Source: Natrarchaeobaculum aegyptiacum | Lineage (GTDB): Archaea > Halobacteriota > Halobacteria > Halobacteriales > Natrialbaceae | NCBI RefSeq assembly: GCF_002156705.1 | Contig: NZ_CP019893.1 | Coordinates: forward strand, 2,170,001 to 2,234,000 | Direction of reading: 5' to 3' | DNA: 64,000 bases | Shown here: positions 3,710 to 17,409 of the stretch, piece by piece | Numbering within the stretch: position 1 is the first letter of the stretch | How the letters are laid out: the number at the start of each line of letters is the position of its first letter | The notes under the pieces: model-generated | What the model saw: only the letters and a program-made list of their open reading frames with translations | Databases searched by the model: none | Told to the model about the DNA's origin: nothing | Program-made: the position numbers and the translations under genes

Positions 3710-5482
3710 TCAGTAGCTTTCAGTAGTACACCGTACAAAACGGGTACACTGTTGGACGACTGGTCCGCGTCCATCACTCCCATCCGCATTCGACTCGGGC
3801 AAGACGACAGCGGGTGCTATGACAGCCGACCCACCACCAGTGGTCGCCGCTGCCTGTTCAGGTTCGTAGGCGACGATGCCAGATCCGAACGTGAGCCGCG
3901 TGCCAGCGTCAGAAGGGAGTTCTGACGAGGATCGCAGTCCATCGGACTGCTCACCAGCGGAACGGCCAGCTAGCACGATTTCAGAATCCCCCGTATAGGA
4001 GGACGTGAAACCGTGGTCTAGCTCGTCCGTGTCGCTGAAGAACACGCGAGCTACGTTCAGTGTCCCGATGTAGTCCCGGTCGCCCTCGAACCCACACCGG
4101 GCGTTGTCACACCGGAAGTGCCCGCCCCACCAGTGTTCTTGCTGGTGGTCGGGTGACTTGCAGGTGTGGCCGGTTGAGCCACACCGGGGACACGACCGAC
4201 TTGTTCCCTGTGGATAGACTCGCTCAACAGCGAGACCGGCACACTCTGCCCGGTATTCGATTTTTTCGATGATGTCTCGACGCGCCCACGACGACAATTC
4301 CCACGACAACGTGCCTTCGTCACTCGGCGGGGAGAGCGACCGCAAATCCTCGTGGACGATGGCGTCTACGTCGTAGGCGAGTGCAAGTGCGAGGACTTGG
4401 TTTGCGACGTCGTGTGTTAGTTGATCGCGCTTGTGCTGGATCTTGCTGTTCACTCGCTCGTACTCACTGTGGATGTGGGCGAACTCGTCAGTATGCGAGC
4501 GACCGCCACGGCGCGACGCGGCAAGGCGGTCGTTCAGGCGGGTACGTTCGCGGTGCAGTCGTCGCATCTTCTCGCGGTCTGTGAACTGGATGAACTGTGG
4601 CGTGGATCGTTGCTCACCCTCGTCAGTGACCACCACGGCAGTCATGTCTTTTCGCATCCCGGCGTCAAGCGCCAGTACGCAGTCTGTGCCGTCAGTCGTC
4701 TCCGCGTGTTCGACTTCGGCGGGGAAGGACAGTTCGTAATAGGTGTCACCGGTCTTTCGACGAGCGGGCTGAAACTCGGGAGCCGAGAGATCGCCGTGAG
4801 CGAGGAGGTCATGAAACGCCTCGTAGCCGTCACGCTCGTACTCTGTCCACGACCAGTCACCTCGTGTCTCCGGCGACAGCGTGTCCGGTGTCTTGAGACG
4901 AATGGTCAGCGTCTCACTGTCGGTGTCGTACTGGTATTTGACGGCTTGGCCGCTCGTTGGGCCGTCGTCCGCAGAAAACGGCAATACGCCGCTATCGTAC
5001 TCTGGACAGTCCTGCATTTCGAAATACGTGGCAGGATACGTGCCATGACGGTCGTAGTAGCTGTTGAGTTGGTCGATGAGGATGTCCACGTATCCCGACG
5101 AGAGGTAGTCACCGTCACCCCAGAGTTGTTCTTTGATGCGACGACGGTGGATACGTCGGATTTTATGGTCGGGCAACACGCTTTGGAAGGACTGGAAGGC
5201 GTCTCGGCGGTCGGCGTGACTTCGGAGCGTTTCACCGACTTTCTGCAAGATGCACCGTCGAAACCGCGAGGGGAGATACAGGCCGAGTTCGTCGAACGGT
5301 TCGTGTTCATCGAAGTAATTCCATGCCTGATGCGGTGCGTCGGCAATGCCGTCCAGATGGACTGGCGTCCAGTGGTCTTCAAGGACATGGTTGGCGACAC
5401 GACGGGTGAGTGTTGCCAGTCGATCGAATCGTTTGTCGTCCTCATCTGGGAGGTGAATCGGGAGCGAGAGGTGGTCACTCAT
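3710..5482 (-). CDS. tnpB: TnpB, RNA-guided nuclease of the IS607 element
   Basis: 590 residues, long for TnpB. The RuvC-type active-site residues are all present: D273 in ALDAGM, E378 in VHEDL and D468/D470 in GDRDYIG. The zinc ribbon has C431, C434, C458 and C463. An N-terminal region of about 260 residues precedes the nuclease core. After the zinc ribbon a tail of about 100 residues rich in Gly, Ser and Ala continues through the element's end repeats; the stop codon itself lies in the first CAGTAG repeat. Known TnpB proteins use an RNA made from the transposon end to cut DNA and help the element persist. Here that RNA would overlap the tail-coding sequence. The ATG at 5482 overlaps the tnpA stop. 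Confidence 0.9.
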   Translation of the reverse strand: MSDHLSLPIHLPDEDDKRFDRLATLTRRVANHVLEDHWTPVHLDGIADAPHQAWNYFDEHEPFDELGLYLPSRFRRCILQKVGETLRSHADRRDAFQSFQSVLPDHKIRRIHRRRIKEQLWGDGDYLSSGYVDILIDQLNSYYDRHGTYPATYFEMQDCPEYDSGVLPFSADDGPTSGQAVKYQYDTDSETLTIRLKTPDTLSPETRGDWSWTEYERDGYEAFHDLLAHGDLSAPEFQPARRKTGDTYYELSFPAEVEHAETTDGTDCVLALDAGMRKDMTAVVVTDEGEQRSTPQFIQFTDREKMRRLHRERTRLNDRLAASRRGGRSHTDEFAHIHSEYERVNSKIQHKRDQLTHDVANQVLALALAYDVDAIVHEDLRSLSPPSDEGTLSWELSSWARRDIIEKIEYRAECAGLAVERVYPQGTSRSCPRCGSTGHTCKSPDHQQEHWWGGHFRCDNARCGFEGDRDYIGTLNVARVFFSDTDELDHGFTSSYTGDSEIVLAGRSAGEQSDGLRSSSELPSDAGTRLTFGSGIVAYEPEQAAATTGGGSAVIAPAVVLPESNADGSDGRGPVVQQCTRFVRCTTESY

Positions 5483-12283: not shown

Positions 12284-13579
12284 ATGGACGAGAATGCGAG
12301 ACAGCGACGACGGGTCGTAATCGCTGGCGGTGGACTGGCGGGACTCGTCGCCGCTCGCCACCTCGCTGCACGGGGGCTCGAGGTCACGCTGTTCGAACGG
12401 CGCGAAACCGTCGGCGGCCGGGTCCGAACTCGTCGGGACGACCGGGCCGGCTACCAGTTCGACCGCGGGTTTCAGGTGCTGTTTACCGCGTACCCGGCCG
12501 TCCGGCGGGAACTCGACCTCGAGGCGCTCGCCCTTCGACGGTTCGAGCCGGGAGCAGTCGTCGTCCGCCCCGGAAGCCGTTCGATGCTCTCGGATCCGCG
12601 CCAGTCGCCGGCGACGATTCCGGCGACGCTCGCGAGCCCGGAGGTGGGGCTAGGCGACGCGATGCGGGTCGCCGGACTCTGGGCCGACCTCGTTCGCACC
12701 GATCCGGACGAACTCTTCGACCGACCGGACCGGTCGATCGACGAGTACCTCCGCCAGCGTGGCTTCTCGCGGCGCTTCCGCGAGCACTTCTTCGCGCCGT
12801 TCTACGGCGGCATCACCCTCGATCGGTCGCTGTCGACCTCAAGTCGGGTCTTCGAGTACACGTTCCGGGCGCTCGCGTCGGGCGACATCGCCGTCCCGGC
12901 GGCGGGCATGGGTGCGATTCCGGCCCAGCTTGCCACCCGGGTCCGTGAGGCCGGTGGAACGCTCGAGACCGGCGTCGCCGTGACGGACGTCCGGGAACGC
13001 GAGGACGGGTCGCTCGCGGTCACGACAGCCGACGGGACCGTCACGGCCGAGGCGGTCGTCGTGGCCACCGATCCACCGTCGGCCCGGGAGTTGACCGGCG
13101 TCGACGCGATTCCGACCGAGTCACGGGGGTGTGTCACCCAGTACTACCGGCTTCCCGGCGAGGCCGCCCTCGAGACGGGTGGTCGACTCGTCCTGAACGC
13201 CGCCGACGACGCAGCGCCGAACCATATCGCACCGCTCAGCGAGGTCGCCCCCGAGTACGGCCCCGCGGACGAGACGCTCCTCAGTGCGACCTTTCTGGGC
13301 ACCCCCGACGCGGCGGACAGCGAACTCGCCGACCGCACCCGGCGCGCTCTCGAGGCGTGGTTCCCAGAACAGGCTGTCGAGGGCCTCGAGTTGTGCCACA
13401 CCGATCGCATCCCGTTCGCCCAGTTCGTCCAGCCACCCGGGATTCACGACCGACTGCCCGACGTCCGCGACCCCGACGGCCCGGTCTACCTCGCCGGCGA
13501 CTACACGCGGTGGTCGTCGATTCAGGGCGCGCTCGAAAGTGGCCGACAGGCGGCGATGGCTGTGCTCGAGGAGCTGTAG
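12284..13579 (+). CDS. FAD-dependent amine oxidase/desaturase-like oxidoreductase
   Basis: 431 residues. The N-terminal dinucleotide-binding motif VVIAGGGLAGLVAARHL is followed by FERRETVGGRVRT, the classical FAD-binding pattern of the amine oxidase/phytoene desaturase superfamily. The end, DGPVYLAGDYTRWSSIQGALESGRQAA, is the second FAD-contact signature. An internal segment PFYGGITLDRSLSTSSR is typical of the desaturase-like branch. Known haloarchaeal relatives include carotenoid desaturase-like proteins, so a carotenoid or other isoprenoid substrate is possible but not shown. The ATG at 12284 fits the family N-terminus; the frame is open further upstream but unlike a protein there. The carotenoid genes at 27-29 kb are not adjacent. 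Confidence 0.85.
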   Translation: MDENARQRRRVVIAGGGLAGLVAARHLAARGLEVTLFERRETVGGRVRTRRDDRAGYQFDRGFQVLFTAYPAVRRELDLEALALRRFEPGAVVVRPGSRSMLSDPRQSPATIPATLASPEVGLGDAMRVAGLWADLVRTDPDELFDRPDRSIDEYLRQRGFSRRFREHFFAPFYGGITLDRSLSTSSRVFEYTFRALASGDIAVPAAGMGAIPAQLATRVREAGGTLETGVAVTDVREREDGSLAVTTADGTVTAEAVVVATDPPSARELTGVDAIPTESRGCVTQYYRLPGEAALETGGRLVLNAADDAAPNHIAPLSEVAPEYGPADETLLSATFLGTPDAADSELADRTRRALEAWFPEQAVEGLELCHTDRIPFAQFVQPPGIHDRLPDVRDPDGPVYLAGDYTRWSSIQGALESGRQAAMAVLEEL

Positions 13580-13934
13580 GCTCGGGGCTCGGGTTCCGGG
13601 GAGCATCGCCAGTAGATGTTCGCTCGAAGTGAACCGTCTCGGAACACGTTGGATGATATCATGAATTTGATGAAACTGGCCTGCTGGATACAGTCACGTA
13701 GTCTCGTGTCGACAGCTGTCTCGGTGCGGTAACCCAGAATGGAGAGGGGCAGGGCCAGAGACAGTACCCGGATTTCTCGAAGGTGGGGGTCCATCGGCGC
13801 GTTGGTCTACCCGGGAGACAAACTACAGTTCCGTCTCTAGCCACTGGTGACAATTTCAGTACATCTTTCTGGATACTCTGGGAGACAGAACTTTAACGGC
13901 ATCGGGATGAATCCCTTCAACGTGAGGGAAGAAC
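13580..13934. other. Intergenic region, no convincing gene
   Basis: 355 bp of lower GC than its surroundings. It contains the perfect 10-bp palindrome ATGATATCAT at about 13652-13661 and, near its right end, a TATA-like CTTTAAC at about 13890-13896 that may serve the aspartoacylase-like gene. A minus-strand frame of up to 90 codons exists but resembles nothing and has poor codon use. It could be decayed DNA flanking the transferred 14-kb gene pair. Confidence 0.4.
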
Positions 13935-14756
13935 TTGAAAAATGGAATACCGTCGCTCGATGTGACCATCCGGGGTCCGGGAGAGCCAGAGGTTGTGGTT
14001 GTCGGTGGCGTTCACGGCGACGAGCCCTGCGGCGTCCGTGTGGTCCGTCGATTGCGGGAGGCAGATCTCGACCTGATGCGCGGTGTTGCGTTCGTCGTTG
14101 CCAATCCAGCCGCAGTCGACGCCGGTGTGCGGTATCTGGACTCGGACCTCAATCGTGCATTCGCTGACACCCCTGTCGACGGCCACGAAGCGAAACTCGC
14201 CGCCCAGCTCCGTGAGTTGATTCAGGACCGCGTCACACTCTCGCTGCACGGGACGCACTCGCAGCCGACTCCATTTGCACTCGTCCACCGTTCTCACCCA
14301 CGCCAGTTCGATCTTGCAGCACAGTTGCCGGTTCCGTATGTCGTCGATCACTGGGGAGTAAACGAGGGGGCGATGACTTCCTGTGGAGTTTCGATCGATA
14401 TCGAGGTCGGTCCACAGGGCACCGAGCAAGCGGCTGTGGCCGCCGAAAATCAGGCCTATGCGTTTCTCAAGCTGGTGGATGCGCTCCCTGGTGAGCCGTC
14501 CGCTACAGATCCGTCGTTCTTCCATATGGCCGACCCGATTCGAAAGCCGCCCGGGATATCCCACGAGATCTTCACCGAAAATTTCGCATATGTCCCGGCG
14601 GGGGCGGCCTATGCAAGCGTTGACGGACAGAAGTTGATCGCAGATGATCCGTTCCATCCGATCTTGATGTCAGAAAACGGGTACTCGGACATCTTCGGCT
14701 TCAGGGGAACCAAAATAGCGGAGTCACTGGAAAAAGCCAAGGAAACGATTGTGTAA
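13935..14756 (+). CDS. Aspartoacylase/succinylglutamate desuccinylase-family hydrolase
   Basis: 273 residues. Zinc ligands and substrate motifs of the AspA/AstE family are visible: VVGGVHGDEPCG (His and Glu ligands), YLDSDLNRAF (the DLNR substrate motif) and LSLHGTHS (second His). Family enzymes cut an acyl group from an amino acid, for example N-acetylaspartate or N-succinylglutamate. No ATG is available near the family start; TTG at 13935 is used, with GTG at 13962 as an alternative. A TTTAA box lies about 40 nt upstream. Codon endings are more mixed and CTCGAG is rarer than in neighbours. The GCS2-type ligase begins 23 bp after its stop, so the two probably form an operon that makes and breaks an amide of an acidic amino acid; the exact substrate is unknown. 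Confidence 0.82.
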   Translation: MKNGIPSLDVTIRGPGEPEVVVVGGVHGDEPCGVRVVRRLREADLDLMRGVAFVVANPAAVDAGVRYLDSDLNRAFADTPVDGHEAKLAAQLRELIQDRVTLSLHGTHSQPTPFALVHRSHPRQFDLAAQLPVPYVVDHWGVNEGAMTSCGVSIDIEVGPQGTEQAAVAAENQAYAFLKLVDALPGEPSATDPSFFHMADPIRKPPGISHEIFTENFAYVPAGAAYASVDGQKLIADDPFHPILMSENGYSDIFGFRGTKIAESLEKAKETIV

Positions 14757-14779
14757 TCAGGAACCAAGAGAGTTGCACA

Positions 14780-15880
14780 ATGAGTCACAATCAGGAAGAT
14801 GATAAATCAATGCAGAAAAGCATCGAAGCTGAGTACTGGGTCGTCGATCAGGACGGCGAGCTCACGGGCCCGGGGGAACTCACGGAGTATTCTGAGAACG
14901 TGGAAGAAGAATTCGTCCGTCCACTGCTCGAGCTAAAGACACCTCCCTGTGAGACGTTCTCGGCACTTCGGTCGACGTTCCTCGAACTACTCGACGAGCT
15001 ACTCGACAAAGCCGACGAACTCGACAAAGTGCTCGTCCCACTCGGGACTCCAATCAATAGTGGCCCAATCGAGCTCCGGCCCAGCGAGCGGAGTCGGATT
15101 CAAAAGCGTGTGCTCGGCGACAACTTTGCCTATGCGAAACACTGTGCCGGGACGCATCTCCACTTCGAGAAGCGAAACGTCACGGATCAACTCAACGTCC
15201 TTGCCAGCCTCGATCCGGCACTGGCACTGCTCAACTCTTCTCCATACTTCCGTGGCGAGACGGTTGCAAACGGTGCTCGAGCCTACATTTATCGGAAGAA
15301 GTGTTACGAATACTTCCCGCTGCACGGTCAGCTGTGGGATTACGTCAATACCGTCGGACAGTGGGAGCGACAACTCGACCGGCTCTTCGACTCGTTCAAA
15401 GCGGCGTCGATGAACGAAGGTGTCAGTGAAACTAATATCGATGCCAGTTTCTCTCCACAGGACATCGTCTGGACGCCAGTGAGACTCCGTGACGAGATGC
15501 CAACTGTCGAGTGGCGAGCACCCGACACGTCGCTTCCAAGCCAGATTCTCCGTCTGGCCGAAGACGTCGGCACGATAATGGAGCACCTCCATCACGCGGA
15601 AGTCCGGATCGAAGGCGACACTGGTGAGGTGACTGCTGATCGAATCACGATCCCCGAGTTCGATGCTGTCCTTACCTACGTCGAGGAAGCGATACACGAG
15701 GGGGTGGAGTCACCAGCGCTCTCTTCTTATCTCGAGCGAATGGGGTTCGACGTTGGGGAATACGACCCACTGACGAGGAACATCGACGGACGTGATTACG
15801 TCAGTCCGGATGAGGCCCGTGAGATCCGGCTTCGATACGGAGACCGGCTGCGACGAGATGTCGATAATCTGATCACATAA
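14780..15880 (+). CDS. GCS2-family glutamate-cysteine ligase-like carboxylate-amine ligase
   Basis: 366 residues, the size of the YbdK/GCS2 group. The start SIEAEYWVVD is the family's IExEx-type motif (for example GVEEE), followed by VRPLLELKTPPCETF, GTHLHFEK, the RLRDEMPTVEWRAPD segment (metal/ATP region with Arg and Glu) and a C-terminal helical part. GCS2 enzymes activate glutamate with ATP to form a peptide-like bond with an amine such as cysteine. Haloarchaea make gamma-glutamylcysteine with a ligase of this superfamily, but this copy is linked to an acylase-like gene, so another amine partner is possible. An oligo-T tract follows the stop. Confidence 0.82.
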   Translation: MSHNQEDDKSMQKSIEAEYWVVDQDGELTGPGELTEYSENVEEEFVRPLLELKTPPCETFSALRSTFLELLDELLDKADELDKVLVPLGTPINSGPIELRPSERSRIQKRVLGDNFAYAKHCAGTHLHFEKRNVTDQLNVLASLDPALALLNSSPYFRGETVANGARAYIYRKKCYEYFPLHGQLWDYVNTVGQWERQLDRLFDSFKAASMNEGVSETNIDASFSPQDIVWTPVRLRDEMPTVEWRAPDTSLPSQILRLAEDVGTIMEHLHHAEVRIEGDTGEVTADRITIPEFDAVLTYVEEAIHEGVESPALSSYLERMGFDVGEYDPLTRNIDGRDYVSPDEAREIRLRYGDRLRRDVDNLIT

Positions 15881-15937
15881 CCGTCCACTGTTCTGTCTTC
15901 GATGACAATTACTGCCTAGATGGTCAGTATCATATCG

Positions 15938-15943
15938 TTTTTT
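15938..15943 (+). terminator. Oligo-T terminator after the ligase operon
   Basis: Six T residues about 60 nt past the stop at 15880, in an AT-richer stretch. Archaeal RNA polymerase stops at such T runs. This is the longest T run between the ligase and the next gene. Confidence 0.45.
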
Positions 15944-16107
15944 CGACCAATCACGTGTCGAACAACCGGCCACGAACGTGTGCTCGAACTGACGACCGTG
16001 AAATGTAATTCTTATCACCATCCTTCCGAAACAGGATGATGTCACAGGAGTAACCGATTCCGGATTGCTACCAGCCCCGACCTTCAGAACCAGGACTTCA
16101 CTCACCG

Positions 16108-17409
16108 ATGACGACGAACGACGACACACATCCGCCGATGACTGCGTCCCCTGAGGACTCCGAGACGACACCAGATTCGTCAGATCCCGGACCGACAGAC
16201 CCGTCCGACCGGATCGTCGCCCTCGACGCGCTTCGTGGCTTCGCCCTCCTCGGGATTCTGGTAATCAACATCTGGCTGTTCGGAATGCCGACGATCGCGT
16301 CGTTCAATCCGGCCCTCTACGGGAACTTCACCGGCGTCGATTACGCCGCCTGGTTGATCAGTCACGTCTTCTTCGAACAGAAATTCGTGACGCTGTTTAC
16401 CTTCATGTTCGGTGCCGGGATCGTTCTGTTCCTCGAATCGAAAGCGCGCAAAGACCAGCCCGGTCGACGGTTACACTTCGCCAGGACGTTCTGGTTGCTC
16501 GTCATCGGTCTCGGGCACGCGTACCTGCTCTGGTACGGTGACATCCTCGTCCTCTACGCCCTGTCCGGCTTTCTCGTGGTCTGGGTGTGGCGCTGGCGGC
16601 CCCGCCGACAGTTCCTGCTCGGGGCCGTGATGTACGCACTTCCTGGAGTGCTGTACCTTCTGATGGGGATCGGCTACCTCGCGCTTCCCGAGGACGGTCA
16701 GGCCGAACTCGAGGCCGAACTGCTCGCTGCGTTCGGTGCGGGATTCTCGCCCGAGCGCGAAATCGACATCTACCAGAGCGGCTGGTTCGACCAGATGGCT
16801 CACCGCGTCCCGGTCGTCCTCGAGTTTCACACGATCGGGTTCGTCTTCGAGGCGTTCTGGATGCTCGGTGGCCTGATGATCGTTGGAATGGCCCTCTTCA
16901 AGTGGGGTATCATCTCCAACCAGCGGAGCACGCGCTTTTACCGGCGTCTCTTCGTCGGTGCCAGCGGGATCGGGTTGGTGCTGGTCCTCGCCGGGGTCTG
17001 GGCCCGCGAAGCGTTTGCGTGGGAGACGATGCCGGTGCTCACGCTCGCGTTCCAGTTCAACTACTGGGGTGCCCCGTTCCTCGCGATCGGCTACCTCGCC
17101 GGGATCATGCTGCTCTGTCGGTGGGTTCAGGAGGGGATCGTCGTCCACGCGTTGACGGCGGTGGGCCGCACCGCGTTCTCGAACTACCTGCTGCAGACGG
17201 TTCTGGCGACGACGATCTTCTACGGATACGGGTTCGGGTTGTTCGGCGAACTTGGCCGGGCGGAATTGCTCGGCGTGGTCGTGTCGATCTGGGCGGTTCA
17301 GATCGTGCTTTCGGTGTGGTGGATGAACCGGTTCCAGTTCGGTCCCGTCGAATGGGTCTGGCGGACGCTCACGTACCGTCAGCGACAGCCGATGCGACTC
17401 GAGGAGTAG
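16108..17409 (+). CDS. DUF418 (YeiB-like) membrane protein
   Basis: 433 residues. After an acidic cytoplasmic tail of about 30 residues comes ALDALRGFALLGILVINI, the opening of YeiB/DUF418 proteins, then about ten membrane helices. The C-terminal region (about 290-420) holds the DUF418 part, with ALTAVGRTAFSNYLLQT and FQFGPVEWVWRTLTY, both typical. Members are related in fold to acyltransferase-3 proteins, and a transport or acyl-transfer role at the membrane has been suggested; the function here is unknown. ATG at 16108. The gene is monocistronic, 99 bp before mutS. Confidence 0.9.
   Translation: MTTNDDTHPPMTASPEDSETTPDSSDPGPTDPSDRIVALDALRGFALLGILVINIWLFGMPTIASFNPALYGNFTGVDYAAWLISHVFFEQKFVTLFTFMFGAGIVLFLESKARKDQPGRRLHFARTFWLLVIGLGHAYLLWYGDILVLYALSGFLVVWVWRWRPRRQFLLGAVMYALPGVLYLLMGIGYLALPEDGQAELEAELLAAFGAGFSPEREIDIYQSGWFDQMAHRVPVVLEFHTIGFVFEAFWMLGGLMIVGMALFKWGIISNQRSTRFYRRLFVGASGIGLVLVLAGVWAREAFAWETMPVLTLAFQFNYWGAPFLAIGYLAGIMLLCRWVQEGIVVHALTAVGRTAFSNYLLQTVLATTIFYGYGFGLFGELGRAELLGVVVSIWAVQIVLSVWWMNRFQFGPVEWVWRTLTYRQRQPMRLEE

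Follow-up and report, generated by a model that had tools for sequence, protein, structure and literature searches.

GshA is the enzyme credited with making gamma-glutamylcysteine in haloarchaea, and a review names HVO_1668 as one that has been tested there (PMC7278568). In Haloferax mediterranei, GlnA-2 performs the gamma-glutamylputrescine ligase step, and PuuD of the Puu pathway hydrolyses a gamma-glutamyl amide, according to a second paper (PMC8394153). A third describes enzymes annotated like the hydrolase studied here as isoaspartyl dipeptidases linked with cyanophycin clusters, and describes cyanophycin dipeptides as being cut by several unrelated isoaspartyl dipeptidases (PMC10206079). 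Among open-access articles screened by title or by the start of the abstract, none reported a hydrolase-ligase pair like the one described below.

The pair lies in a window (the whole stretch of DNA that was analysed, 64,000 nucleotides) of the Natrarchaeobaculum aegyptiacum genome, a single contig of 3.93 Mb from the family Natrialbaceae. We tentatively propose, giving the idea slightly less than an even chance, that the pair is a make-and-cut module, in which the ligase builds a gamma-glutamyl isopeptide that the AspA-type hydrolase cuts, either as it is or in a derived form. The presence of the same kind of ligase beside a different, unrelated cutting enzyme in relatives hints at a small metabolic cycle that has not been described. 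The features of the locus are as follows.

13879..13934, + strand: conserved leader, with a TATA-like actttaac and a GAGG directly before the start codon
13935..14756, + strand: AstE/AspA-type zinc hydrolase, here called AspA-A (273 aa, TTG start, PF24827)
14757..14779, + strand: intergenic gap of 23 bp (18, 7 and 7 bp in three homologous pairs)
14780..15880, + strand: divergent GCS2-type carboxylate-amine ligase, here called GCS-B (366 aa, ATG start, PF04107)
15938..15943, + strand: run of six Ts 3' of the pair, a sequence that may mark the end of transcription

An earlier note on this DNA had described an AspA/AstE-like gene and a GCS2-type gene 23 bp apart, and the two + strand open reading frames do match the corresponding Pfam families, AstE_AspA_cat (PF24827) at 67.3 bits against a curated cut-off of 25 and, more weakly, GCS2 (PF04107) at 38.5 bits against 21. 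Neither protein reaches the cut-off of any NCBIfam model. The TTG start proposed for the hydrolase is supported by an in-frame TGA just 5' of it and by the TTG or GTG that three homologous pairs have at the equivalent position, after a conserved GAGG..AAGAAC. The leader, about 55 bp that begin near 13879 and run up to the start codon, is conserved at four loci in unrelated sites, and homology among these loci fades 5' of about 13879 and on either side of the cassette. The leader probably serves as the promoter. The terminator that the genes were said to share did not appear: a pattern scan detected none downstream of the pair, and there is no stem-loop at the six-T run (15938-15943). An Rfam scan of 13500-16200 returned zero families above threshold. 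The neighbour 3' of the pair is a DUF418 gene that is present in all three sister genomes searched for an empty site; none of six other window proteins was found within the 19, 7 and 7 kb read around DUF418 in those genomes, so that an empty site was not recognisable.

The association of the two genes is conserved, although rare. Of 125 family genomes, four have the two genes as a tight pair on one strand, and the sites are unrelated: the pair occurs in the window, in Natrialba swarupiae (G040), in Natrarchaeobius chitinivorans (G039) and in a fourth genome, G055. Comparison of the four tight pairs gave dN of 0.07-0.15 and dS of 0.47-1.12; dN is far smaller than dS, which indicates purifying selection on both genes. 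The hydrolase belongs to a close clade, AspA-A (matches of 59% or more; next match 46%), that occurs in 14 of the 125 genomes, and 6 of these 14 genes adjoin a GCS-B gene. Besides the tight pairs there are two looser linkages, one in Natronosalvus hydrolyticus (G113), where AspA-A is divergent to GCS-B, and one in G038, where the gene order is reversed and the genes are 673 bp apart; both involve other ligase branches than the tight pair. The remaining 8 of the 14 have no adjacent GCS-B gene in the stretches of about 13-20 kb that were read, among them plasmid-borne copies in Halomontanus rarus, Natronobeatus ordinarius and Natronosalvus rutilus. Of the 14, the copy in G023 has canonical gshA at a distance of 5.6 kb. 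The four tight loci have no called gene cluster next to the pair in common; genes at fetched loci were called by our own codon-based script, and their starts are rough. In N. chitinivorans, the opposite strand carries a fragment from the C-terminal part of TnpB (L086:4971-5597), which ends 45 bp from the ligase gene.

The ligase falls outside canonical GshA. The host genome has three GCS2 homologues: canonical GshA at C1:2725024 (273 bits against PF04107, and 688 bits against NF010045, the haloarchaeal GshA model, for which the cut-off is 395), a paralogue at C1:1787960 that is 44% identical to the pair ligase, and the pair ligase itself, which is about 25% identical to the canonical GshA. NF010045 is absent from the five NCBIfam matches of the pair ligase at E up to 0.001, and the ligase scores 45.4 bits against the YbdK family TIGR02050, below the cut-off of 176.4. 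In a 67-row tree, a very long branch with full support separates canonical GshA (23 rows) from the other 44 rows, and GCS-B is our own name for this second, non-GshA group. E16, E18, E51, R106, H126, R167, E244 and R246 are common to the ligase and canonical GshA in 14 aligned sequences, and the same motifs were recovered in a comparison with YbdK. The structure model of the ligase (pLDDT 75, weak in residues 153-183) groups by fold with YbdK and plant glutamate-cysteine ligase at Z 21-23.

Relatives of the ligase are widespread. BLAST with the pair ligase gave matches in 94 of 125 family genomes; in 92 the E value is 1e-84 or better, and the other two matches are weak and could be canonical GshA. 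In another haloarchaeal family 10 of 10 genomes had a match, as did plasmids from other genera, and one genome of a neighbouring family has five GCS-B matches, one of them with an internal stop. On viral contigs no relative of the ligase was confirmed with a single-sequence ligase query, which detects close relatives only. At L045:5356-8914 and in equivalents at six other loci, a GCS-B gene is divergent to a CysD/PAPS-reductase-like gene.

GCS-B genes are also found beside a second, unrelated hydrolase. On plasmid PL131 of Natronomonas pharaonis and on a plasmid of Natronorubrum bangense, GCS-B is followed by a gene annotated as GMP synthase, which encodes a free-standing class-I glutamine-amidotransferase-like protein (PF00117, with a weaker match to Peptidase_C26). 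Cys86, His170 and Glu172 of this protein, which we take to be its catalytic triad, are invariant in five sequences. Such a gene lies 6-96 bp downstream in 9 of 89 GCS-B rows, whereas an AspA-type gene is the neighbour in 6, a short-chain dehydrogenase is downstream in 6 and none of the three partners was scored in 68. On the tree of these 89 rows, where GCS-B adjoins AspA-type genes at three places, the AspA and amidotransferase labels need three changes each, at least two of which are forced by starred branches; this tree is a non-random sample, with SH-aLRT as its one measure of support, in which the AspA-linked loci were fetched deliberately, two loci on plasmids were added after a protein search, the remaining regions were picked from the matches listed, and rows shorter than 280 aa or nearly identical to others were excluded. 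Among the close relatives of the amidotransferase-like protein listed in the family (72% or more), 11 of 13 have start coordinates no more than 1.3 kb from a GCS-B gene, and of the 11 two are identical copies from a single genome whose contamination is 13%; none of seven listed relatives at 66-71% is near a GCS-B gene. An amidotransferase-type match occurs in 123 of the 125 family genomes. An estimate of chance linkage, which treated genes as independent, used five of the six AspA linkages and assumed 2.5 GCS-B copies and 4.2 Mb per genome, is no more than a rough guide.

The repeated joining of one ligase family to two unrelated amide hydrolases supports the make-and-cut module, since this is the arrangement expected if each hydrolase cuts the product of the ligase. 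In this mechanism, GCS-B would use ATP to link glutamate, through its gamma-carboxyl, with an acceptor amine, probably that of an amino acid, and the AspA-type zinc hydrolase would cut the resulting gamma-glutamyl isopeptide, or one derived from it, to glutamate and the amino acid. We infer glutamate as the donor, an amino acid as the acceptor and the action of both enzymes on one bond. Because the isopeptide could be cut back to its two components, it might act as a store, a protected form or a releasable intermediate. Recurrence of the pair, the looser linkages, retention of catalytic residues in the ligase, the second type of hydrolase, the resemblance of the AspA-A fold to CphZ bound to beta-Asp-Arg and the encoding of canonical GshA elsewhere in the host genome all favour the module, and the cyanophycin dipeptidases and the Puu pathway are precedents for it. 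Against it, a ligase and a hydrolase that share a compound would run a futile cycle if they were not regulated, and neither enzyme needs the other, as 8 of 14 AspA-A genes are unlinked and 68 of 89 GCS-B rows are partnerless. The earlier suggestion of a small amide or osmolyte that is made and recycled thus fares well in its first part, through the recurrence of the pair and the second hydrolase with the same ligase family; nothing points to an osmolyte. A further family of ligases, served by hydrolases of its own, would imply undescribed gamma-glutamyl metabolites and release enzymes, and the pair is small enough for direct testing.

The hydrolase itself bears on which bond is cut. Its scores are below the equivalog cut-offs for aspartoacylase (NF002601; 56.6 bits, cut-off 180) and for succinylglutamate desuccinylase AstE (TIGR03242; 32.8 bits, cut-off 305.65). 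H27, E30, R66, N73, R74, H105 and E157 are invariant across all 24 aligned AspA-type sequences; by comparison with aspartoacylase, we take H27, E30, H105 and E157 to be the zinc ligands and catalytic Glu, and the other invariant residues to be substrate contacts. With catalytic residues kept in both, the two proteins of the pair look active. In AspA-family enzymes, an Asn-Arg pair grips the free carboxylate of the leaving amino acid, and the conservation of this pair as N73-R74 would make an amino acid a more likely acceptor than a plain amine. An acidic acceptor may be less likely, because Thr148 stands opposite Arg168 of aspartoacylase, the clamp on the aspartate side-chain carboxylate, in a very weak alignment (-0.3 bits). 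The best-matching folds of the hydrolase model (pLDDT 92) include 3cdx, DoeB (6twm, Z 23.2), aminoacylase 3 (3nh4, Z 22.2), aspartoacylase and the cyanophycin dipeptide hydrolase CphZ (8eip, bound to beta-Asp-Arg; Z 19.7, rmsd 3.2, 258 aligned residues, 14% identity), although fold alone is no proof of function. The top phmmer match is aminoacylase 3.

DoeB and aminoacylase 3, both N-acyl amino acid deacylases, match the hydrolase with higher scores than the isopeptidase CphZ does, and this counts against a make-and-cut module. It would suit a linear pathway, in which AspA-A first strips the N-acyl group off an amino acid, as DoeB or aminoacylase 3 do, and GCS-B attaches a gamma-glutamyl group to the amine thus freed, so that the enzymes act on different bonds. 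The gene order of the tight pair, with the hydrolase preceding the ligase, also fits such a pathway. We nevertheless consider it unlikely, as it leaves unexplained the amidotransferase-like hydrolase that follows the same ligase family, and Pfam detected no acyltransferase among the four neighbours tested.

AspA-type genes are nearly universal in the family, with a match in 124 of 125 genomes. In the host, in the region L052:6530-10766 (G000:C1 about 224529-228765), the universal AspA paralogue sits with DUF309 and a sulfur-transport-like membrane gene (DUF6691/PF04143); genes from two clusters that carry the annotations monothiol-glutaredoxin-like and DUF7110 in L045 are there as well. This paralogue is within 50 kb of gshA in at least 25 of the 58 genomes with both listed, a count that is uncorrected for shared descent; the coordinate linkage counts used 85 GCS-B and 58 gshA rows and are lower bounds. 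In five genomes of a single genus the AspA paralogue seemed to have a TGA inside the gene, but this is simply the codon that precedes the start.

The proximity of the universal AspA paralogue to a monothiol-glutaredoxin-like gene and to gshA could indicate that the acceptor is cysteine, and that the pair forms a second branch of gamma-glutamylcysteine metabolism, with AspA-A recycling gamma-glutamylcysteine or its S-conjugates. The location of some GCS-B genes divergent to a PAPS-reductase-like gene is in keeping with this idea, as is the action of aminoacylase 3 on mercapturates. However, the host already has a canonical GshA, the pair ligase differs greatly from it (about 25% identity), and Pfam found no thiol gene among the four neighbours of the pair that were tested. 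We regard cysteine as an unlikely acceptor. The view of the earlier note that the product is not simply gamma-glutamylcysteine gains indirect support, because canonical GshA is encoded separately (688 bits against NF010045) and the pair ligase is below the NCBIfam cut-offs. It is conceivable, but doubtful, that the make-and-cut module belongs to a haloarchaeal family of gamma-glutamyl isopeptide cycles, in which GCS-B works with either hydrolase, each perhaps separately recruited from a near-universal relative; the near-universal AspA relative, near glutaredoxin and often gshA, would then itself be a gamma-glutamylcysteine-releasing enzyme, as yet unrecognised in haloarchaea.

The composition of the pair is atypical for the host. 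As had been noted from the mixed codon endings, GC3 is low, 0.648 for the hydrolase and 0.634 for the ligase, where 71 other host genes in the sample average 0.846 (sd 0.040); both genes are lower than all 71, and so is their CAI-like score. The lowest of those 71 is a gene at 3710-5482 of the window, with GC3 of 0.66. Three paralogues elsewhere in the host genome are ordinary (0.81-0.86). In the three other hosts of tight pairs, hydrolase and ligase have GC3 of 0.61 and 0.61 (local mean 0.84), 0.61 and 0.56 (0.76), and 0.63 and 0.58 (0.68), so that the pair is under the local mean in all four hosts, the Natrarchaeobius hydrolase only slightly. The difference is small in the looser pairs of G113 and G038 (0.03-0.07), and the mean offset from the surroundings is -0.02 both for other GCS-B genes (92 rows) and for the universal AspA paralogue (48 rows). 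Thus, the atypical composition belongs to the cassette and not to the gene families.

Low GC3 suggested that a recent horizontal import may have taken place. With the universal AspA paralogue as a vertical control, dS in the same four genomes is 0.62-1.26, and the divergence of the pair is close to this one control, although a little lower in 11 of 12 comparisons. For gshA, in one genome pair only, dS is 0.60, against 0.77 and 0.79 for the pair. The foreign character ascribed to the genes is thus borne out by composition and patchy occurrence, whereas recent import is not established. The cassette may stem from a transfer long ago, or it may have been passed down while often being lost or moved to new sites.

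A common mobile or low-GC past might be all that joins the two enzymes, which would then be functionally unrelated. Low GC3 in all four hosts (slight for the Natrarchaeobius hydrolase), the TnpB fragment 45 bp from the Natrarchaeobius ligase, AspA-A genes lacking a neighbouring ligase on three plasmids and pair dS mostly slightly below the control are what such a past might leave. But the linkage recurs in different ligase branches and with a second type of hydrolase, and the pairs have the leader and tight spacing in common, so we think this explanation quite improbable. Modification of a protein or peptide in the manner of PafA/Dop, which are distant fold neighbours of the ligase (Z 10-14), is very improbable, as YbdK and plant glutamate-cysteine ligase match the ligase fold better (Z 21-23).

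The proposed make-and-cut module resembles several known systems in part. Haloarchaeal GshA (Haloferax volcanii HVO_1668; the host copy is in NF010045) has the GCS2 fold family and catalytic residues in common with the pair ligase; however, the pair ligase is only about 25% identical to the host's own GshA and reaches no NCBIfam cut-off. The closest solved folds to the ligase are those of the carboxylate-amine ligase YbdK (1r8g) and its Salmonella relative (1tt4), at Z 23, yet its 45.4 bits on TIGR02050 are far from the 176.4 of the cut-off. For the hydrolase, CphZ (8eip) is a side-chain isopeptide hydrolase of the AspA/AstE family, and such genes adjoin some ligase clusters; but CphZ cuts beta-Asp-Arg, and the ligase of the cyanophycin system is CphA1 rather than a GCS2 protein. 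Similarly, the hydrolase has the fold and N-terminal zinc-site motifs of DoeB, aminoacylase 3 and aspartoacylase, although it is under the NCBI cut-off for aspartoacylase (56.6/180) and has Thr148 opposite Arg168, in an alignment of only -0.3 bits. Lastly, in the Puu pathway a gamma-glutamyl amide is made and later hydrolysed, as we propose for the pair, and PuuD is amidotransferase-like. The Puu ligase, however, is a homologue of glutamine synthetase and not a GCS2 protein, whereas the hydrolase of the pair is AspA-type.
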